NCBI GenBank assembly: GCA_018303125.1
Contig: JAGVYS010000006.1
Span: forward strand, 1 to 44,277
Direction of reading: 5' to 3'
DNA: 44,277 nt
Source of the DNA: Candidatus Woesearchaeota archaeon
GTDB taxonomy: Archaea; Nanobdellota; Nanobdellia; Woesearchaeales; WJIZ01
Numbering within the stretch: position 1 is the first letter of the stretch; each line of letters starts with the position of its first letter. This document shows positions 31,339 through 43,370 of the stretch, piece by piece. The position numbers and the translations under genes were made by a program. The notes under the pieces are model-generated. The model was not told the origin of the DNA. It saw nothing but the letters and a program-made list of their open reading frames with translations, and made no database searches.

Positions 31339-32334
31339 TTAGATTAGGCGCTTGAGGTCCTCAATAGCATTCTGAAGCTTTTTATTCTCGAAAATGACCT
31401 TGTAGGATTGCCTTACCAATGGCAATGATATGTCATGTTTTTCAGCATACTCATGCACAGCCTTGCATGTTGGTATCCCCTCGGCTACCATGCCATGCAT
31501 CTCCTCGTTTATCTTCTCCAGGCTATATCCTTTTGCAATTAGCTCTCCTGCTCTCCTGTTCCTTGACTTAGCTGATGTGCATGTTGCAACAAGGTCACCG
31601 ACTCCTGCAAGGCCGTAGCAGGTTTCCTGCTTGCCTTTAAAGTGCCTGCTTACTTTTACCATTTCCCTGAGGCCAAGAGTGATTATTGCGCCGGATGCAT
31701 TGTCGCCCAAGCCAAGAGATGAGATTATACCGGTTGCAATTGCTGTTATGTTTTTCATGGCACCGCATATTTCAACACCTATGACATCATCATGCGGATA
31801 CACCTTGAAATAGCTGCACTCGAATGTGCTCTTAATTATTTTTTCAGGGATGTTTTTTGAAGCTATTACAGTAGCGGTTGGGATTTTCCTGCTTACTTCC
31901 TCTGCATGATTCGGACCAGAAAGCACCCCCAACATAGAGATATTAAGCTCTTCCCTTATTACTTGGGACATTAGCTTCATTGTATTTAGCTCAAGCCCCT
32001 TTGCAGCATTGATGACGATACATTCTTTTGCCACATTTCCTTTTATGCTCCTCAAATTCTCCCTGAGGAATTGCGAAGGAATAGCAGTTACTATCAGCCC
32101 TGCACCGGAAACTGCTGCCCTTTCATCTGATGTGGGAGAGACATTCCTAGAAAGCTTTATTCCTGGCAGGTATTTTGTATTTTCCCTTTTTTCCCTTATT
32201 GAACTGGATATCTCCTCTTCCCTTGCCCAAAGGATGACTTCCTTTCCTGTGTTATCGGCAATAATACTAGCGAGAGTTGTACCCCAGCTTCCTGCCCCGA
32301 GCACTGCTATCTTCATAGAATCAATCCCTGTCAA
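31339..32334 (-). CDS. gpsA: NAD(P)-dependent glycerol-3-phosphate dehydrogenase (GpsA family)
   Basis: IAVLGAGSWGTTLASIIADN, SGPNHAEEV, GAMKNITAIATGIISSLGLGDNASGAIITLGLREM, TCYGLAGVGDLVATC. Confidence 0.95.
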   Translation of the reverse strand: MTGIDSMKIAVLGAGSWGTTLASIIADNTGKEVILWAREEEISSSIREKRENTKYLPGIKLSRNVSPTSDERAAVSGAGLIVTAIPSQFLRENLRSIKGNVAKECIVINAAKGLELNTMKLMSQVIREELNISMLGVLSGPNHAEEVSRKIPTATVIASKNIPEKIIKSTFECSYFKVYPHDDVIGVEICGAMKNITAIATGIISSLGLGDNASGAIITLGLREMVKVSRHFKGKQETCYGLAGVGDLVATCTSAKSRNRRAGELIAKGYSLEKINEEMHGMVAEGIPTCKAVHEYAEKHDISLPLVRQSYKVIFENKKLQNAIEDLKRLI

Positions 32335-32962
32335 AAGTATATTCCTGATTTGAGAGGCTGGCTATATTTACCATAACTTCGGTTGTTAGTTTCCTTAACA
32401 GCCTCTTGTCGGCATTTTTTGAATAATAACTATCAAGATGAATCGGCTTTCCTATATTTAAATCTGCTTTTTTACCAAACTTTGGAATTCTCCTGCCTTT
32501 TGGGAGTATGTAAAAAGTGTTTGTAAGACCAATTGGAATTACCGGAACCCTTGCTTCCAAAGCAAGCCTTACCACGCCAGTTTTTGCCCTGCTCATCTTT
32601 CCTGTAAGGGTCCTTGTGCCCTCTGGGTATATCATTATGAGCTCACCTTTTCTGAGACATTCCGCTGCCTTATGCAATGCATCCTCGCCTCCTGCTTGCC
32701 TGTCTAGAGGTATGGCGCCTAGGTAATTGTGCCACATCCTCTCAAAAGGAGAATAAAAATGCTCTTTCTTTGCGAGAGTCCTGAACGGCCTTTTTGCCTT
32801 CCTCACAAATGCGCACCCAATTATCAAGTGGTCCAGATAGGATGAGTGATTGGCGGCTATTATTGCTCCTCCTTTTTTTGGAACATTCTCTATGCCCCTT
32901 ACTTTTCCTGTGAAAGGAAGAAGCACCAGCTTCACAATGAAAGAGATTATCTGATATTTCAT
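32321..32962 (-). CDS. 1-acyl-sn-glycerol-3-phosphate acyltransferase-like (PlsC family)
   Basis: HX4D motif ANHSSYLDHLIIG and IYPEGTRTLTG. Confidence 0.92.
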   Translation of the reverse strand: MKYQIISFIVKLVLLPFTGKVRGIENVPKKGGAIIAANHSSYLDHLIIGCAFVRKAKRPFRTLAKKEHFYSPFERMWHNYLGAIPLDRQAGGEDALHKAAECLRKGELIMIYPEGTRTLTGKMSRAKTGVVRLALEARVPVIPIGLTNTFYILPKGRRIPKFGKKADLNIGKPIHLDSYYSKNADKRLLRKLTTEVMVNIASLSNQEYTFDRD

Positions 32963-33600
32963 TTTGCTATCAAAAAGGATATTTTCCCCATTATTTCGTC
33001 TGTTATTTTTCTAAGCGTATTATAATCTTTGCTTCCGTAGTATTTCTCAAATGTCATGGGCTTCCCTATACTTATGTCAAACCTCCTGAACCTCGGGAAC
33101 TTTGCACCCTTTGGAAAAACATTATGCGAGCCAATGATAGCTATAGGAAGAACAGGGACCTTTGATTTCAGAGCTACAGTTGCCACTCCTGTTTTTCCTT
33201 CCCTTAAAGTGCCATTGTTCCTGCCTCCTTCCGGGAAGATGCCAAATATATCTCCCCGTGCAAGAAACCTTACTGCATCTTCAATTGCCTTCTCATTCGT
33301 TTTGTTTCTTTTTTCGGCATCCTTCACATCCTTGCTTACATCCACCTTAATGCAGCCAAAATGGTCAAGAAAAAGTTTAAAGAAAACATTGCTGTAATAC
33401 CTTGAATTTACGAAAATATGGAATTTCTTCTTCGCAAACCTTGTGATAAGGTAAGGAATGGCCAAATCATCAAGGTAGGATGAATGGTTAGCCACTGCTA
33501 TAAACGGCCTATCTCTTGGAATGTTTTCATGGCCTTCTATCTTCCTTGTGTACATCCTTACAAAATTTCCCAGAAAAAACCTCCCGAACGGGTATACCAT
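32959..33600 (-). CDS. 1-acyl-sn-glycerol-3-phosphate acyltransferase-like (PlsC family), second copy
   Basis: HX4D motif ANHSSYLDDLAIP and IFPEGGRNNGTLREGKTGVATVAL. Confidence 0.92.
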   Translation of the reverse strand: MVYPFGRFFLGNFVRMYTRKIEGHENIPRDRPFIAVANHSSYLDDLAIPYLITRFAKKKFHIFVNSRYYSNVFFKLFLDHFGCIKVDVSKDVKDAEKRNKTNEKAIEDAVRFLARGDIFGIFPEGGRNNGTLREGKTGVATVALKSKVPVLPIAIIGSHNVFPKGAKFPRFRRFDISIGKPMTFEKYYGSKDYNTLRKITDEIMGKISFLIAK

Positions 33601-34789: not shown

Positions 34790-35049
34790 AGCCTGAGATA
34801 AGAAAACCCACTGAAGCAGAAAATAAAGAAGCAGGAGCATGGCCAATATGGGAAAAGGAAGTGAGCGAATTCGAGTGGGAATATGATTCAAGGGAAATAT
34901 GCCTTATTCTCGAAGGACAGGCAGATGTGACAAATGAAAGCAATGAAAAATTTTCTTTTGGAAAAGGAGACTATATCATATTCCCGAAGGGAATGAAGTG
35001 CACATGGAAGGTAAACAAAAAGATAAAGAAGCATTACAATTTCGACTAA
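34786..35049 (+). CDS. Small cupin (EutQ/DUF861-like)
   Basis: CLILEGQADVTNESNEKFSFGKGDYIIFPKGMKCTWKV. Confidence 0.82.
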   Translation: MKPEIRKPTEAENKEAGAWPIWEKEVSEFEWEYDSREICLILEGQADVTNESNEKFSFGKGDYIIFPKGMKCTWKVNKKIKKHYNFD

Positions 35050-35780
35050 AACATAATTCCGCCGTCTACCTTTATAACAGCGCCTGTTATATACCTTGCT
35101 TTTTCTGATGCGAGGAAAGCTGCAAGGTTAGCAATGTCTTCAGGCATTCCCATCTCCTTGAGAGGTATTAGCATGAGTATCTTTGAGGCCATCTCAAGAG
35201 GCATCTGGTCTGTAAGCTCTGTCTTTATGAATCCTGGAGCGATTACATTGACTGTTATTTTTCTCTTGCCAAGCTCCTTTGCAAGGGATTTTGAGAAGCC
35301 TATGATTCCTGCCTTTGAGCTTGCATAGTTTGTCTGGCCGAAATTGCCAGAAATTCCTATAATTGAACTTATGTTTATTATCCTGCCATTATCCTTTATG
35401 ATGTCCAATAAGTTCCTGGTAACATTAAAGACAGAATTTAAATTTACGTTGATAATCCTGCTCCAGTCTTCAAGAGACATGTTTTTGAGAGAACGATCGC
35501 ATGTTGTACCTGCATTGTTGACAAGAATATCAATATGTGAAAAACTTTTCTTGACCTCTGCTCCAAGCGTCTCGCAGCTTTTGAAATCAGAAACATCTGC
35601 AGCTATGAATTCGGACTTGACGCCCAATGCAACTATTTCCTTTACGACTTCCTTTCCCTGAGCTGCTGATTTTTCTGTGCCATTGATTATGACATCACAG
35701 CCTTCTTTAGCAAGAGCAAGAGCTATTGCCCTGCCTATTCCCCTTGTAGAGCCTGTGACCAATGCCTTTTTCCCTTTCAT
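35046..35780 (-). CDS. fabG: SDR 3-oxoacyl-thioester reductase (FabG-like)
   Basis: KALVTGSTRGIGRAIA, VNNAGTT, NYASSKAGIIGFSKSLAKEL, NVIAPGFIKTELT; start placed 8 nt after GGAGG. Confidence 0.92.
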   Translation of the reverse strand: MKGKKALVTGSTRGIGRAIALALAKEGCDVIINGTEKSAAQGKEVVKEIVALGVKSEFIAADVSDFKSCETLGAEVKKSFSHIDILVNNAGTTCDRSLKNMSLEDWSRIINVNLNSVFNVTRNLLDIIKDNGRIINISSIIGISGNFGQTNYASSKAGIIGFSKSLAKELGKRKITVNVIAPGFIKTELTDQMPLEMASKILMLIPLKEMGMPEDIANLAAFLASEKARYITGAVIKVDGGIMF

Positions 35781-35793
35781 CTGCATGACCTCC

Positions 35794-36759
35794 TTAAGAC
35801 CTGATAGCTGAAACATACACCCACTCGCATGTGAAGCTGGATGAGTCTGCCATGGCATTAGTTTCCTCAAGCTCCTTGAAAAGCTTGTATGCTGCAAGCG
35901 TTATCAGCTTGTCCCTTGCAGCTTCCTCCTCAGGAGAGGCCTCTTTGCCGCCTACTTCAGGAAGAATCCCTGCCTGTAGCCTGTGAACCCTGAGAAAATT
36001 CAGCCAGTCAGTGTACCTTATTTTTATCAGCTTGTAGAAAGTTGTCAGGTTGCGAAAGCCAGCTTCCTTCAGTGTGCTGAGGTATGTTTCAAGGTTTCTT
36101 GGCGCAGGGAAAACAAAACTCCTCTGCTCCTTCTCTTTCTCTATATTTTCCTGGAGCTTTGCCCTGTATGACCTGAACTCATCATTATTCCTTATAATGT
36201 CAAGGGCTATGTCATGCACCCTGTTTATTGTGTCATCGACCATAAGCACGCCTTCTTTCCTCCCATTGCGAAGTATGTTGCCGCTCTGAAAAGTTATTGT
36301 TCCATCTTCCTTGAGTGCATTCCGCATGTCAGAAAACGTTCCATGAAGGTCAGGAACAAGATGAAGCGTATTTGCAGATATAACATGGTTGACTGTTCCT
36401 GTTCCCACTGTCTCTGCAAGTGTTGCGAAGCCGTTGCCTACTTTTTCTAGCAGGAATAGCTCGACATTTGGATTTCCCTTGAAAATCTCGTATGCCTTCC
36501 CTAGCCATGCTGCAGAGTTGTCAACAAGCCAGAGCTTGAAATTCACTTTTATCTCATTTAGTAGACAAATAGATGACGCACCAGTCCCTGCGCCGAAATC
36601 CAGAACTATATCCTTGTCTTTTATCTTTTCCCTTACAATCTTGGCAAGCTCTTTAAGATTCTCTATATAGTATTCTGCATCTACAACAGCATCATGGTAA
36701 CCTGATGCGCCTTTTGAAACCGGCTTTGTGGGGCCCCATGGTTTAGCAACATCTGCCAT
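35794..36759 (-). CDS. Class I SAM-dependent methyltransferase
   Basis: VLDFGAGTGASSICLL (motif I), LWLVDNS, ISANTLHLVPDL. Confidence 0.82.
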   Translation of the reverse strand: MADVAKPWGPTKPVSKGASGYHDAVVDAEYYIENLKELAKIVREKIKDKDIVLDFGAGTGASSICLLNEIKVNFKLWLVDNSAAWLGKAYEIFKGNPNVELFLLEKVGNGFATLAETVGTGTVNHVISANTLHLVPDLHGTFSDMRNALKEDGTITFQSGNILRNGRKEGVLMVDDTINRVHDIALDIIRNNDEFRSYRAKLQENIEKEKEQRSFVFPAPRNLETYLSTLKEAGFRNLTTFYKLIKIRYTDWLNFLRVHRLQAGILPEVGGKEASPEEEAARDKLITLAAYKLFKELEETNAMADSSSFTCEWVYVSAIRS

Positions 36760-36798: not shown

Positions 36799-37923
36799 TT
36801 ATGCTTTCTTAAGTATGTGGTTGGCAACTGTGCCACCCGCACCCCCTATGCTCTGTGCCATTGCTATGCTTGCCTTGCTAACCTGCCTGTCTCCTGCTTC
36901 TTTCCTGAGCTGCTTCACCAATTCATAAATCTGGCCGAGCCCTGTTGCAGAAAGAGGATGGCCTTTTGCCTTGAGCCCTCCTGAGGTGTTAACGGGAAGT
37001 TTTCCGTCAAGCTCGAAATATCCGTCTTCTATTTTCTTGTATGCCGTGCCTTTCTTGGAGAATCCCAAATCTTCATAGGCTATGAGCTCAACTATGGAGA
37101 ATGCATCGTGAATCTCAGCTATATCTATGTCTGAATGGTCAATACCTGCTTGCTTATATGCTGTGCCTGCACTTGTGACTGATGCATTCCATGAAGTATT
37201 ATCTTCCCTTTCAAAGGTTGACATGTAATCTGTTGAAAGCCCTGCTCCGATAATTTTTATGTCTGCCTTGTCTTTTGAGAGGACAACAGCAGAACCGCCA
37301 TCTGCGGAAACAGAACAGTCAAAAACCCTAAGGGGAGAGCATACAAGCGGAGAGGACCTTATTTTCTCGAGGCTTATTTTGGTATTATAGAATTTTGCCT
37401 TTGGATTAGAGTATGCATTATTGTGATTCTTGAATGCAATAAGGGAAAGATGGTCATGAGTTGTTTCTGGGTATTTGAGCATGTATTCCTGGGCAACCAT
37501 GGCATTCTGGGCAGGAAAATTAAAGCCTTCTGTCTGCTCCCACTTTGACTCTGCTGCCATCATGAATTCCTCTGTTATGGCCTCAGACTTGCAGGTCATG
37601 AGCTTTTCTGCGCCCACAACAAGGACATTGTCAAAATCCTGCTGCTGTGCAAACCATAGGCCTGCGCCACTGCTCCCACATGCAGCCGGAATCCTTACAA
37701 TTGGCTTGTGCGTCTTGAAAATAGAAGAAAGCATGCTTTCAAAATGCCTTTGCTTCTCCAATGAAAAAAACCATTCTATGGAGGAGCATACCACTGCGTC
37801 AATCTCTGAGAAAGAAATGCCTGCATCATCCAGTGCTTCCTGTGCTGCATCGTATGCAAGCTGGTGGGAAGACTTATCTGAAATCCCAAATTTCGTCATT
37901 CCGGCTCCCTTGATGTACATCAT
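36799..37923 (-). CDS. SCP2-type thiolase / acyl-CoA acyltransferase (copy 1)
   Basis: Active-site Cys IPAACGSSGAGLW; EIHDAFSIVELIAYEDLGF; GGLKAKGHPLSATG; SIGGAGGT. Confidence 0.9.
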   Translation of the reverse strand: MMYIKGAGMTKFGISDKSSHQLAYDAAQEALDDAGISFSEIDAVVCSSIEWFFSLEKQRHFESMLSSIFKTHKPIVRIPAACGSSGAGLWFAQQQDFDNVLVVGAEKLMTCKSEAITEEFMMAAESKWEQTEGFNFPAQNAMVAQEYMLKYPETTHDHLSLIAFKNHNNAYSNPKAKFYNTKISLEKIRSSPLVCSPLRVFDCSVSADGGSAVVLSKDKADIKIIGAGLSTDYMSTFEREDNTSWNASVTSAGTAYKQAGIDHSDIDIAEIHDAFSIVELIAYEDLGFSKKGTAYKKIEDGYFELDGKLPVNTSGGLKAKGHPLSATGLGQIYELVKQLRKEAGDRQVSKASIAMAQSIGGAGGTVANHILKKA

Positions 37924-39050
37924 GCTGCCTTACCAATAAGCTTTGAGCCAATGGGCTGCTTTATGTCCCTCCTTAAGGCCTCAAGCTCATTTCCGATAAA
38001 CTTAATCCTGCTCGCATCAGACTGGCCATAGCCAAGCTGTGCTGCAAGCTCCACATAAGGAACTTTTCTAAGGCAGAATATCTCCTTAACTGCCGTGTCA
38101 TGCACAACTGGATTCCTGGCGGCTAGGATTAGGTTAAAGAATCCCGGCTCCCCGTAATTGGCAGGCCCATTTCCCTGCAAGCCTATTGATGCATCTCCCA
38201 GTGTAAAGAAAGGAGGGAATACCTTAGGGAATACTGCTAGTGCCAATGCTGCTTTTTGTGGGTCTGATGAATATTTTTCAAAAGTCTTTTTTGAGAGGAA
38301 CCTTATCATGTTCTCAAAAGCACCATCAATGCCAAGCACCATGTCGGTCTTTATTACAGGCACATTTATCACGAGGCCAGCATCAAAAACTGCCTTTGAT
38401 ATCTCAAACTCAAAGTCCCTTTCCTTTTTCTTGATAAATTCTGTTTTTGATAAGTCAAGAATCTTTACCTTGTGCTTCTTTGCTACTTCAACAAGGCCTG
38501 ATTTTGAAATAGACTCTTCGAAAGGCATGAAAAAGTTCTGCTCTGCTATGGTTATGCTTTCAGGCTTTGCGCCCTTATCCTTAATGAGATACTGGAGCAA
38601 GGCATCTATGACTTTGGGGTTTGTGCACATTCCCAGGTAGGAATGGCCTGGAATGCTCATGTTAGGCTTGATTAGAATGCTCTTGCCTAGCTTTAGCCCT
38701 CCTGTAAGCTCTATGGCTTCGGACACAGCCTCATAAAAATCATATTTTAATTTAACAATCGCAACTGCAGAGTCTGATGAATCTGGTATGTCCTGATAAA
38801 CATCGCCTATATTATAATCCTTCATTGTTTTTTTAGGCATCCTGTTGCCAAGCTCATCCTCAAGCATGATGACATTGTAAGGAACAATGGGATGAAGTGG
38901 ATTTGGTATGAATATTTTTGTAAATCCCACTACTTTAACTTTATTAGTAACTACCTTTGCTATTTTTTCCCCGTCATATATGCACTTCTCGACAGGATGT
39001 ATCCATTTCCTTCCACACTTGCTGCATTTCCATCTAATTATGCGTACCAT
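37920..39050 (-). CDS. DUF35-like Zn-ribbon/OB fold fused to a DUF362 domain
   Basis: N-term RWKCSKCGRKWIHPVEKC...VVGFTKIFIPNPLHPIVPYNVIMLEDELGNRM. C-term KSILIKPNMSIPGHSYLGMCTNP...LVINVPVIKTDMVLGIDGAFENMIRF...GDASIGLQGNGPANYGEPGFFNLILAARNPVVHDTAV. Confidence 0.8.
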   Translation of the reverse strand: MVRIIRWKCSKCGRKWIHPVEKCIYDGEKIAKVVTNKVKVVGFTKIFIPNPLHPIVPYNVIMLEDELGNRMPKKTMKDYNIGDVYQDIPDSSDSAVAIVKLKYDFYEAVSEAIELTGGLKLGKSILIKPNMSIPGHSYLGMCTNPKVIDALLQYLIKDKGAKPESITIAEQNFFMPFEESISKSGLVEVAKKHKVKILDLSKTEFIKKKERDFEFEISKAVFDAGLVINVPVIKTDMVLGIDGAFENMIRFLSKKTFEKYSSDPQKAALALAVFPKVFPPFFTLGDASIGLQGNGPANYGEPGFFNLILAARNPVVHDTAVKEIFCLRKVPYVELAAQLGYGQSDASRIKFIGNELEALRRDIKQPIGSKLIGKAA

Positions 39051-39054
39051 TTTC

Positions 39055-40185
39055 TCACCTTTTCCTGAATATGTTTACGGCGCAAGTTCCTCCTGCGCCC
39101 CCTATGTTATGGGCAAGCCCATATTTTGCGGATTTGACCTGCCTCGCACCGCATCTTCCTCTCAGCTGCTCGACTATCTCATATATCTGCGCCAATCCGG
39201 TTGGAGAGATTGGGTGGCCTCTTGCTTTAAGCCCTCCTGAGGTATTTACAGGAAGCTTTCCATCAAGGTTCACTATGCCCTTCCTTATCATGTCCTTGCC
39301 ATGCCCTTTTTTGCAGAATCCCAAATCTTCATACGCTATGAGCTCAACTATGGAAAATGCATCATGAATCTCAACTACATCTATGTCTGAAGGCTCAATA
39401 CCTGCTTGCTTAAATGCATCCGTCCCTGCATTTATAGTGGAATCCCATTTTGTCATGTCATCCCTTTCGAACGGCGCAATATAGTCTGTTGCAAGACCTG
39501 AACCCATAACCTCAACATCAGATGGGTCTGAAGATATAACCGCTGCTGCTGCACCATTCACAGTCATTGAGCAGTCAAAGAGATTAAAGGGAGTTGCAAT
39601 CATAGGGCCTTTCCTTATATCTTCAAGGGAAACCTTTTTGCCATAAAATGGTGCCTTTGGGTTAAGGCTTCCGTTGTAATGGTTCTTATACGCTATAAGC
39701 TCAAGGTCTTCATGGGTTGTACCATACTTTAGAATGTGCTGCTGGGCTACCAGAGCATTTTGTGCAGGAAAAATAAGGCCTTCATCCTGCTCCCACATAT
39801 TTTCCCCTGCTGCCATTATCTCCTTTGTTATGAGGTTTGTTGGCGCTGCCGCAACTTTATCAACACCAACAACAAGGACATTATCATATTTTAGCCTTAG
39901 GGCAGACCAAAGTGCTGTTCCGCCACCACCACATACTGCAGGTACCCTTATTATGGGCATTTTGCGCCTTACCAGGGATGCAAGCAGTGGAGAATAGTGC
40001 CTCTGCCTCTCATCATTCACCTTAGTATCTGAGTTGGAGATTACTATTGCACCCATATCATCTATGCCCATACTGGCATCATTAAGGGCATCAGTTATTG
40101 CCTCATAGGCCATGCTCATAGTTGTTCTGTCATCTACACTGAACTTAGTCATACCTACGCCATGCACATATTTCTTTGAAACCAT
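39055..40185 (-). CDS. SCP2-type thiolase / acyl-CoA acyltransferase (copy 2)
   Basis: VPAVCGGGGTALW; EIHDAFSIVELIAYEDLGF; GGLKARGHPISPTG; HNIGGAGGT. Start set at MVSKKYVHG. Confidence 0.9.
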   Translation of the reverse strand: MVSKKYVHGVGMTKFSVDDRTTMSMAYEAITDALNDASMGIDDMGAIVISNSDTKVNDERQRHYSPLLASLVRRKMPIIRVPAVCGGGGTALWSALRLKYDNVLVVGVDKVAAAPTNLITKEIMAAGENMWEQDEGLIFPAQNALVAQQHILKYGTTHEDLELIAYKNHYNGSLNPKAPFYGKKVSLEDIRKGPMIATPFNLFDCSMTVNGAAAAVISSDPSDVEVMGSGLATDYIAPFERDDMTKWDSTINAGTDAFKQAGIEPSDIDVVEIHDAFSIVELIAYEDLGFCKKGHGKDMIRKGIVNLDGKLPVNTSGGLKARGHPISPTGLAQIYEIVEQLRGRCGARQVKSAKYGLAHNIGGAGGTCAVNIFRKR

Positions 40186-40192
40186 TTTAGCA

Positions 40193-40687
40193 TTACCTGG
40201 AAGAAAATTTTGACCTGAATCTTGCTTTATCAACTATTGCCAAAGTAAAGGATGCCTTGGCTACTTCCCTGTCCCGTACCTTAGCAATGGCCTTCATAAC
40301 CCCGCCTTTGCTGTTTTTTCTCTTAAGGCTTACTTCAAGCCTCAACTCATCCCCTGGCAGGGTAGGATACATGAACTTGATGCCCTTCATCTTATAAGCC
40401 AATATATCCTTTTCCTCATGCCCATCTATATTATATCTTAGGAGCAATGTTCCGGCTTGCCCCATTCCTTCAACTATAAGTGCTCCTGGCATGATTGGGA
40501 AACCAACAAAATGTCCTTTGAAAAACTCTTCTTCTGGCCTGACCTTCTTCACTGCTATAATCTTGCCTTTTTCAAGCTCAAGAACCTTATCTATCATAAG
40601 GAAAGGGTGCTCATAAGGTATTATTTTCTTGATGGCTTCCTCATTTAGCTGGCCATTCCCATCCTTAAGGTCATCAATAAGAACCAC
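40193..40687 (-). CDS. fabZ: FabZ-like 3-hydroxyacyl-thioester dehydratase
   Basis: IIPYEHPFLMIDKVLELEKGK, FFKGHFVGFPIMPGALIVEGMGQAG hotdog-fold motifs. Confidence 0.9.
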   Translation of the reverse strand: MVLIDDLKDGNGQLNEEAIKKIIPYEHPFLMIDKVLELEKGKIIAVKKVRPEEEFFKGHFVGFPIMPGALIVEGMGQAGTLLLRYNIDGHEEKDILAYKMKGIKFMYPTLPGDELRLEVSLKRKNSKGGVMKAIAKVRDREVAKASFTLAIVDKARFRSKFSSR

Positions 40688-40827: not shown

Positions 40828-42690
40828 ATGGTCAGGAGGATAATAAGGGTTCTCAACGCCTCCCTAAAACCTGTAGAGGCGGCTTATCGCAAGCTGAAAG
40901 ATGTTTTAAGGAAAACAAAGAACAGGGTTCCAAATGTCTTCAGCGAGATAGAGGTATTTCTGAAAAACCATTTCATAAGCATTGAATCTGGAAAGAGCTT
41001 AAGGAACAGCCCTAATTTTGGCAAATTGTCTGAGACTATAGCTGCAAACATTGCAAAAAAGATACCTTACATAGATGAAGGGAAGCTGGATAAAATTATC
41101 ATGGACAAATCCTCTAGCTCATTCTTAGACATGCTAACAATAGGCTTGGGAAAGGGGGAACATAAGGAATTTACAAAGATAAAGAAGGAGAAGCTGTTCA
41201 AGAAGATACTGATAGCTAACAGGGGAGAAATTGCGTTAAGGGTAATAAGGGCATGCAGGGAAATGGGCATATCAACTGTTCAAGTTTATACAAAGCCTGA
41301 TGCAAAGTCACTTTCTGTCAAGTTCGCTGATAAGTCTGTAAAGCTGGGCAATGAGGCTTCTGCCTATCTTGACATGCATAAGATAATCAAAATTGCAAAA
41401 AAGCTGAAGGTTGATGCAATCCACCCTGGATATGGCTTTCTTTCAGAGAACGCTGATTTTGCAAAGCTTTGCAAAGAGAACAAGGTCAAGTTCATAGGGC
41501 CATCACATAAGATAATTACTGCAATGGGAGACAAGGTAAATGCCAGGAAGCTTGTAAAGAAGGAAGGCATACCTGCCCTTGAGGGAACTGACCATGTTAT
41601 TGTTGATGCAATAAAAGGAATGGAGATTGCAAAATCCATAGGATTCCCTGTAATAATAAAGGCTGCTGCAGGAGGAGGGGGCAGGGGCATGAGAGTCGTA
41701 AAGAATGAGGCAGAGTTTGAAAGCTGCTTTGCGGCATGCCAGGCTGAAGCGGAATCGTCATTCAAGAACAAGGATGTTTTCATTGAGAAATATTTATTAG
41801 ACCCAAGGCACATAGAGTTCCAGATACTTGCTGACAGCAAAGGAAATGTCATCCATCTGGGAGAGCGTGACTGCTCCATACAGAGAAGGCATCAGAAACT
41901 CCTTGAGGAAGCACCAAGCCCTGCGATGAATCCAGAGCTTAGGGAAAGGATGGGAGAGGCTGCCTTGAAAATTGCAAAGGCAATAGGCTATGAGGGTGCA
42001 GGCACTATTGAATTCCTGCTTGACAATGCCAATAATTTCCATTTCATAGAGATGAATACAAGAATACAGGTTGAGCATGGAATAACAGAAATGATAACAG
42101 GTATTGACCTTGTCAGGGAGCAGATAAAGATTGCTGCTGGCGGTGAACTCTCAAGGACACAAGCTGATGTAGAGATAAGCGGATGGGCAATTGAGTGCAG
42201 GATAAATGCGGAATGCCCAACAGATGGCTTCTGCCCTGTAACAGGAACTATAGTAAATTATCTTCCGCCTGGTGGCCCGGGCATAAGGGTATGCTCATCC
42301 TGCCATGCAGGACAGGAGGTAAACCCTCATTATGACTCCATGCTCGCAAAGCTTATGTGCTGGGGAGAAACAAGAACAGAAGCAATGGATAAGATGCAAA
42401 GGGCGCTTAACGAATTCATAATAGAGGGGATTGACACAACAATTCCATTCCATAGAGTGGTATTGACAACACCAGCATTCATAAAAGGTGACATAACAAC
42501 ATCATTCATAGAGAAGAACCATATCATGGAAAGGGTAAAGAAAGAAAGCAAAAAGAAGATTCTCACTAAAGAAGAGAAGGCTGTCATAATAACAACTGCT
42601 GTATCCGGTTATATGAACAAGAACAGGTTCAATGACAAGCAAGGCGCATGGGTCAAGGCCGCAAGGCAGGAAGCCGTGTTCCAGGAATAA
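40828..42690 (+). CDS. accC: Biotin carboxylase with about 124-aa N-terminal extension
   Basis: KKILIANRGEIALRVIRACREMGI, HPGYGFLSENADFAKLC, AAAGGGGRGMRVV, FIEMNTRIQVEHGITEM. Confidence 0.94.
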   Translation: MVRRIIRVLNASLKPVEAAYRKLKDVLRKTKNRVPNVFSEIEVFLKNHFISIESGKSLRNSPNFGKLSETIAANIAKKIPYIDEGKLDKIIMDKSSSSFLDMLTIGLGKGEHKEFTKIKKEKLFKKILIANRGEIALRVIRACREMGISTVQVYTKPDAKSLSVKFADKSVKLGNEASAYLDMHKIIKIAKKLKVDAIHPGYGFLSENADFAKLCKENKVKFIGPSHKIITAMGDKVNARKLVKKEGIPALEGTDHVIVDAIKGMEIAKSIGFPVIIKAAAGGGGRGMRVVKNEAEFESCFAACQAEAESSFKNKDVFIEKYLLDPRHIEFQILADSKGNVIHLGERDCSIQRRHQKLLEEAPSPAMNPELRERMGEAALKIAKAIGYEGAGTIEFLLDNANNFHFIEMNTRIQVEHGITEMITGIDLVREQIKIAAGGELSRTQADVEISGWAIECRINAECPTDGFCPVTGTIVNYLPPGGPGIRVCSSCHAGQEVNPHYDSMLAKLMCWGETRTEAMDKMQRALNEFIIEGIDTTIPFHRVVLTTPAFIKGDITTSFIEKNHIMERVKKESKKKILTKEEKAVIITTAVSGYMNKNRFNDKQGAWVKAARQEAVFQE

Positions 42691-43370
42691 TGCATATACA
42701 CAATATAAGGAAAACTGATTCTACAAACAGGCTTGCCAGGAAGTACAAGCCAGGAACAGTGATAAGGTCTGCTATTCAATCATCGGGAGTAGGAAGGTTT
42801 GGCAGGAAGTGGGTATCTGATTCTGGCGGATTATGGTTCTCAATAGTGCTAAAGCCTGAAAGGAAGCTTTGCGAGTATACCTTCATAGCCTCACTTGCTG
42901 TCCTTGATGCAATAGGCAAGAAAGCTGAGATAAAGTGGCCAAATGACCTTGTTTACAAAGGGGAAAAACTTTGCGGGATACTTACAGAGATACATTCCTC
43001 AGGAAATACCGTAAAGAAGGTAATTGTCGGCATAGGCCTAAATGTGAATAATGATGCTCCTTCTGGGGGTGTTTCCCTTAAGGAGATAATGGGGCATGAA
43101 ATCAACATTGATGAGCTTCTTAGAAAAATAGTTGAAAATTTCATAAAAATTTCAAAGTTAAGCATCTCTTCCATAATAGCTATGTACAGGAAAAAATGCT
43201 CCATGCTCGGAAAAATGGTGACTGCATCTACCTTGGAGGGAACGTTCTATGGAAAAGCTGCTGGAATAGATGACGAGGGTAATTTAATACTGGAAACAAA
43301 TAAAGGAGTAAAGAAGCTTACAGAGGGAGATGCTACTTTAGGATATTCCTTACCTCATCAGGCACATTAA
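42690..43370 (+). CDS. birA: Biotin-protein ligase (no HTH domain)
   Basis: TDSTNRLARKY, GRFGRKWVSDSGGLWFSIVLKP, KWPNDLVYKGEKLCGILTE; ATG overlaps the accC stop. Confidence 0.92.
   Translation: MHIHNIRKTDSTNRLARKYKPGTVIRSAIQSSGVGRFGRKWVSDSGGLWFSIVLKPERKLCEYTFIASLAVLDAIGKKAEIKWPNDLVYKGEKLCGILTEIHSSGNTVKKVIVGIGLNVNNDAPSGGVSLKEIMGHEINIDELLRKIVENFIKISKLSISSIIAMYRKKCSMLGKMVTASTLEGTFYGKAAGIDDEGNLILETNKGVKKLTEGDATLGYSLPHQAH

Follow-up and report, generated by a model that had tools for sequence, protein, structure and literature searches.

What does a polypeptide that joins DUF35 to DUF362 do between two thiolases in an archaeal genome? The question is raised by a locus in a 44,277-nucleotide stretch of contig JAGVYS010000006.1 (Candidatus Woesearchaeota archaeon, GCA_018303125.1), which is referred to here as the window. 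The fusion protein is encoded on the minus strand by one ORF with an ATG start (37920–39050) and has 376 residues. It is flanked by the genes for thiolase 1 (39055–40233, minus strand) and thiolase 2 (36799–37923, minus strand), both of the family that works with DUF35, which includes the 6esq thiolase and BbsB. The preliminary description of this DNA had reported DUF35 and a complete-looking DUF362 domain in a single polypeptide between two thiolases, with a 4-nt overlap onto the second, and each of these observations is borne out. The fusion stop codon overlaps the ATG of thiolase 2 at 37920–37923, reading ATGA on the coding strand (37923 to 37920), and the PF04015 (DUF362) profile is matched over residues 125–321 (38088–38678, minus strand) at 99 bits, from position 1 to 198 of 200. 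An AlphaFold2 prediction of the single chain, with the 36 distinct fusions as input, is confident (pLDDT 87.9, pTM 0.90). Sequence searches of the PDB with the fusion or its N-terminus gave nothing credible, and no phage homologue was found.

The N-terminal half (residues 1 to ~84; 38799–39050, minus strand) is a DUF35 module of zinc ribbon and OB fold, despite being missed by Pfam. Neither PF12172 nor PF01796 (zf-ChsH2 and OB_ChsH2_C, together DUF35) matched any of 18 fusion N-termini or the one stand-alone homologue. Yet the profile of these sequences aligns by hhalign with that of 12 canonical PF01796 proteins from the phylum at a probability of 88.7 (E 2.5e-6) across 77 columns, in which the Cys knuckles line up, as against a probability of ≤1.3 for 22 other families used as controls. 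Foldseek of the fusion model also leads to the DUF35 chains of Ltp2-ChsH2 (6ok1), benzoylsuccinyl-CoA thiolase (7pxp/7pyt), ACAT/HMGCS (6esq) and Sal-Shy (9myr), so that the earlier assignment of the first ~80 residues to DUF35 stands on profile and fold alike. The stand-alone homologue, encoded next to a thiolase in a different genome of this phylum (L043), has 95 residues, and its end coincides with the position of fusion residue 84. In the window protein C9, C12 and C23 are three of the four Cys zinc ligands and the fourth is replaced by D26. Among the 36 fusions the CCCC set is complete in 23, whereas six have none of the four Cys, which suggests that some lineages can do without the metal. 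Solved DUF35 domains contact a thiolase-fold enzyme and link it, by bridging or by fusion, to the enzyme of an adjacent step (PMC12329534). By analogy, DUF362 would be tethered to the thiolase complex via DUF35.

Of 279 genomes sampled from the phylum, 12 carry the fusion. Scanning genome contigs gave 36 fusion loci, comprising 35 from Woesearchaeota/Nanoarchaeota MAGs, many of them from the same genomes, and one from a contig labelled Nitrospinota; 36 distinct sequences were aligned. The Nitrospinota-labelled contig (L079) is 4.3 kb long, holds the 5' portion of the fusion gene and a thiolase, and is probably a mis-binned Woesearchaeota fragment. An assembly frameshift absent from relatives does not account for the ORF, because 36 distinct Woesearchaeota sequences share it in the same gene order. 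In more than 30 loci this order is FabZ, thiolase, fusion, (SDR), thiolase, (methyltransferase), SDR, with biotin carboxylase and BirA genes running divergently. In most loci BCCP and carboxyltransferase genes lie further out and a PlsC-PlsC-GpsA set is nearby. The window follows this plan on the minus strand with a FabZ-like 3-hydroxyacyl dehydratase (40193–40687), the thiolases and fusion, a SAM methyltransferase (35794–36759) and a FabG-type 3-oxoacyl reductase (35046–35897; TIGR01830, 298 bits), the annotated start of which is probably too long. The biotin carboxylase subunit (40828–42690) and the biotin protein ligase BirA (42648–43370), both conserved beside the cluster, are on the plus strand. 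Two PlsC-type acyltransferases (32959–33600 and 32321–32962) and a GpsA-like sn-glycerol-3-phosphate dehydrogenase (31339–32334), named from its sequence and conserved in its linkage, lie on the minus strand.

The occurrence of the fusion closely follows that of FabZ. The dehydratase is found in 15 of 279 genomes, namely all 12 fusion genomes and three others, an overlap with a probability of ~1e-18 if genomes were independent, although this figure overstates the association because the genomes are related. In the three fusion-free genomes FabZ lies less than 1 kb from a contig end, and sequence checks on two of them showed the contig stopping inside thiolase 1, just before the expected start of the fusion.

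The fusion genomes also share what they lack. No free ACP (PF00550) was found in 11 of the 12, the single match in the twelfth being inside an 810-residue multidomain protein, and no ketoacyl-synthase (PF00109) was found in 11 of the 12, the one weak match being located in a side thiolase locus; such absences are soft because the sampled genomes are MAGs. A ketoreductase, a dehydratase and an enoyl reductase are all encoded by the genome studied here, FabG and FabZ in the window and FabI elsewhere (G000:C15, 307 bits to NF005615). Across the 12 fusion genomes a strong FabI-type SDR is present in eight and an acyl-CoA dehydrogenase in three others, leaving one (G104) with neither a high-scoring FabI nor an acyl-CoA dehydrogenase. 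FabK/NMO was set aside as an alternative enoyl reductase, its matches being weak and partial only. Absence of GGGPS was also dropped as an indicator that a membrane swap is particular to fusion genomes; with only 5 of the 279 genomes above the family's cut-off, it is uninformative. The simplest reading of the gene content is that the cluster encodes a CoA-based fatty-acid cycle in which the thiolase pair and the fusion would together act as the condensing enzyme.

The residues of the thiolases bear on the direction in which such a cycle would run. Classical thiolases have a second catalytic Cys. In nearly all loci the thiolases of this cluster keep the nucleophilic Cys, HDAF, GHP and HN/QN motifs (HN in thiolase 1) and have no second Cys. 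A beta-oxidation-like degradation of acyl chains, with the thiolases cleaving beta-ketoacyl-CoA, could draw on the reversibility of thiolases and on the acyl-CoA dehydrogenase genes of three relatives, which have EtfBA beside them in two loci. We nevertheless regard degradation as improbable, since both thiolases are missing the second Cys of the classical enzymes and since their neighbourhood combines reductive enzymes of the FabZ, FabG and FabI types with biotin carboxylase, BCCP and carboxyltransferase, the PlsC pair and GpsA. Synthesis remains the direction that we favour. This thiolase family is also employed non-decarboxylatively, which counts against the condensing complex proposed below. 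ACP-independent fatty-acid synthesis in archaea, with thiolases that would use acetyl-CoA, is proposed in the available text of Lombard et al. 2012 (PMC3533463); the linked carboxylase genes would instead favour malonyl-CoA. A residue signature that might separate the two substrates was dropped, and the choice is not decidable from sequence, because a solved thiolase relative annotated as an acetyl-CoA acetyltransferase (7yvy) carries the same HDAF/GHP/QN pattern.

Variation among the loci hints at the nature of the product. Extra genes in some loci encode a methyltransferase, at times joined to an SDR, a protein like CoA-transferase III/AMACR, a 2-oxoacid:ferredoxin oxidoreductase, or an acyl-CoA dehydrogenase with EtfBA. 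In several relatives (for example L037:5466-7157 and L039:14038-15759) the methyltransferase and a FabG-like SDR form one protein, an arrangement that resembles reducing polyketide synthases, and AMACR-like CoA_transf_3 genes are present in L039 and L042. Together these genes suggest that the cluster may make alpha-methyl-branched acyl chains. In one lineage (L036, L054, L055, L056, L059, L061 and L063) a gene for a dihydrolipoamide-dehydrogenase-like flavoprotein sits beside the cluster on the opposite strand. Three relatives carry a separate set of HMGCS/KASIII-like and thiolase genes near the cluster (L071:13403-19198, L074:16526-19400 and L053:3267-5410). A canonical DUF35 belongs to the sets of L071 and L074; L071 also has CoA-transferase genes, and L074 has MaoC. 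These side sets could supply a branched starter CoA. They also suggest that in the fusion DUF362 takes the place of the partner enzyme.

The fold of DUF362 is informative as to what such a partner could be. By Foldseek the DUF362 half is closest to malate racemase (7s91, E 1.7e-8) and then to lactate racemases, which identifies it as a LarA fold, and DUF362 and LarA are both members of Pfam clan CL0471 (PMC11770544). In sequence, the DUF362 half is closest to stand-alone DUF362 proteins from this phylum, which have two [4Fe-4S] motifs at the C-terminus (hhalign E 5.5e-37). These carry a K-T-H-x9-K-N motif in which both the His and the Lys are present in 18 of 18 sequences. The H-x9-K spacing equals that between His174 and Lys184 in LarA, where we take Lys184 to be the number of the cofactor-tethering residue. 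The true LarA of this genome (L108) has EPHFMAGFSGGAKGI at the H-x9-K region, and three Fe-S DUF362-like proteins with GHMLAGFGGSIKN or a near variant of it score above the Lar_N cut-off along the same stretch of the profile. Direct hhalign comparison of DUF362 with a LarA side of two sequences gave no profile match. LarA His174 is catalytic, and Lys183 of a LarA homologue is the point of pincer attachment (PMC12611868). On motif spacing and fold, fusion positions 236 and 246 (D236-x9-E246 in the window; 38313–38345, minus strand) probably correspond to His174 and Lys184.

Both positions have changed in the fusions. Position 236 is Asn in 20, Asp in 11, including the window protein, and His in five of the 36, while position 246 is Glu in all 36, against Lys in 18 of 18 stand-alone proteins. 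The pocket is otherwise highly constrained, with K128, E170, K234, N247, R250, D286 and D318 invariant in the 36 fusions, and K128, K234, N247 and D286 common to fusions and stand-alone DUF362. An Fe-S function for the fused domain was ruled out, as it contains no conserved Cys. LarC was not found in eight of the 12 fusion genomes, including this one (G000), and the pincer cofactor is therefore not generally available. The LarA homologue of this genome (L108, G000:C22:1934-2494; Lar_N, 122 bits) thus occurs in a genome with no LarC match, and LarC is perhaps missing from the assembly. The stand-alone DUF362-2x[4Fe-4S] proteins (L014–L031) keep H-x9-K, though of the four fusion-free genomes with such proteins that were tested, three are without LarC; these proteins may possibly tether another kind of cofactor via the Lys. 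In one lineage the fusion has long forms (L037, L039 and others) with ~115 extra C-terminal residues, modelled in alignment with nearly the whole length of LarA. The clade of the window has either lost this extension or never had it.

These replacements bear directly on whether the fused domain could be a working LarA-type nickel-pincer racemase for hydroxyacyl or alpha-branched CoA. The LarA fold and the Pfam clan common to DUF362 and LarA (PMC11770544) invite that proposal, which we nonetheless consider the least credible of the roles weighed here: Asn, Asp or His and an invariant Glu replace the His and the cofactor-tethering Lys, and LarC is absent from most fusion genomes. The fused DUF362 appears no longer to use a pincer cofactor while retaining a constrained pocket. 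As the one uncharacterised domain that is constant in the core cluster, DUF362 was also considered for the enoyl reductase of the cycle. That candidate was rejected after the FabI and acyl-CoA dehydrogenase searches and is very unlikely, as no flavin, Fe-S or NAD motifs are seen in the domain, one or other of the alternative enzymes is present in 11 of 12 fusion genomes, and the role is unnecessary because this genome has FabI.

We consider it moderately likely that the fusion serves as the DUF35 subunit in a condensing complex of two thiolases, which would extend acyl-CoA during ACP-free fatty-acid synthesis, with DUF362 most likely docking a CoA thioester. Docking or holding a CoA thioester seems the likeliest role for DUF362, ahead of catalysis, because no catalytic step is unfilled in most genomes. 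However, the invariant charged pocket may mean catalysis instead. DUF362 might, for example, epimerise, isomerise or decarboxylate a CoA-thioester intermediate just before or after condensation, tethered by DUF35 to the thiolase. Its charged residues are invariant in 36 of 36 fusions at an overall identity of 39–66% to the window protein, the K-to-E change is accompanied by an invariant R250 that suggests retooling and not decay, and in Shy-Sal and ChsH1-ChsH2-Ltp2 there is precedent for steroid hydratases tethered to Sal and Ltp2 (PMC12329534). Each standard elongation step already has a candidate, though, no cofactor motif or conserved Cys was found in the domain, and the window protein is without the extension of the long forms, all of which make such an enzyme an unlikely, if credible, alternative. 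A wider version of the catalytic proposal, slightly less probable and held only tentatively, is that the fused DUF362 is a new LarA-fold catalytic module that acts without the pincer cofactor on CoA thioesters within a ketosynthase complex of the thiolase type, and that archaea with possibly bacterial-type membranes need it to make fatty acids and glycerolipids without a carrier. The preliminary description had gone further, in suggesting that DUF362 is a new catalytic or carrier module tethered to the thiolases. Partnership with the thiolases and tethering, the latter by analogy with solved DUF35 complexes (PMC12329534), are supported, but the catalytic or carrier nature is not, as the LarA-type His and Lys are lost and the enoyl step is filled by FabI.

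In the docking model the DUF35 half would bind the thiolases and shape CoA entry. The DUF362 half, with its charged pocket of K128, E170, K234, E246, R250, D286 and D318, would hold a CoA thioester, either substrate or product, or would dock the partner FabG or FabZ next to the thiolase, instead of carrying out a pincer-type racemisation. Malonyl-CoA would be provided by the biotin carboxylase set and condensed by the thiolases with the fusion, followed by optional alpha-methylation. FabG, then FabZ, and then FabI or acyl-CoA dehydrogenase would complete the round, and the PlsC pair would transfer the acyl chain to glycerol-3-phosphate. Such a cluster could enable tiny Woesearchaeota to produce bacterial-style membrane lipids. 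It makes ACP-free fatty-acid synthesis in archaea testable, together with the presence of bacterial-type sn-glycerol-3-phosphate ester lipids in these organisms, and gives a functional context to DUF362 as a widespread LarA-fold family.

DPANN fab genes, with a G3P dehydrogenase near them, have already been reported (PMC10936187, PMC8204110, in the portions available). The cluster now supplies them with a specific candidate for the ketosynthase, one that tracks FabZ across the phylum. No mention of a DUF35-DUF362 condensing unit was found in the available portions of those two papers or of PMC3533463, and no description of the architecture was found in the accessible parts of the open-access literature that mentions DUF362. 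The present analysis adds the identity of a conserved, putative condensing unit and of its DUF35-DUF362 subunit, the parallel occurrence with FabZ and the altered LarA-type site.

Among known systems, ACAT/DUF35/HMGCS (6esq), Ltp2-ChsH2 (6ok1), Sal-Shy (9myr), BbsAB (7pxp) and PhlABC (5m3k) share with the fusion a zinc-ribbon/OB DUF35 beside thiolases of the same family, and a DUF35 joined to another enzyme by fusion or by binding. Unlike in those complexes, the DUF35 described here is joined to a LarA-fold DUF362 and encoded between two different thiolases in a FabZ/FabG cluster, and it is without the fourth Cys ligand in the window and without all four in some relatives. Stand-alone DUF362 with two [4Fe-4S] motifs has the same domain, whereas the fusion is without the Fe-S tail and has H236 replaced by Asn or Asp, or kept as His, and K246 replaced by Glu. 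LarA has the fold in common with the fusion, at the E value given above for the malate racemase homologue, but the fusion is without the cofactor Lys and one catalytic His at the motif positions. As far as the available text of each source goes, the proposal of Lombard et al. 2012 (PMC3533463) and the DPANN fab genes (PMC10936187, PMC8204110) are like the cluster in combining FabG/FabZ/FabI-like enzymes with thiolase condensation and no ACP. Beyond them, the loci analysed here present, as the candidate condensing unit, a conserved two-thiolase cluster that includes a DUF35-DUF362 subunit and is linked to genes for carboxylase and PlsC/GpsA.
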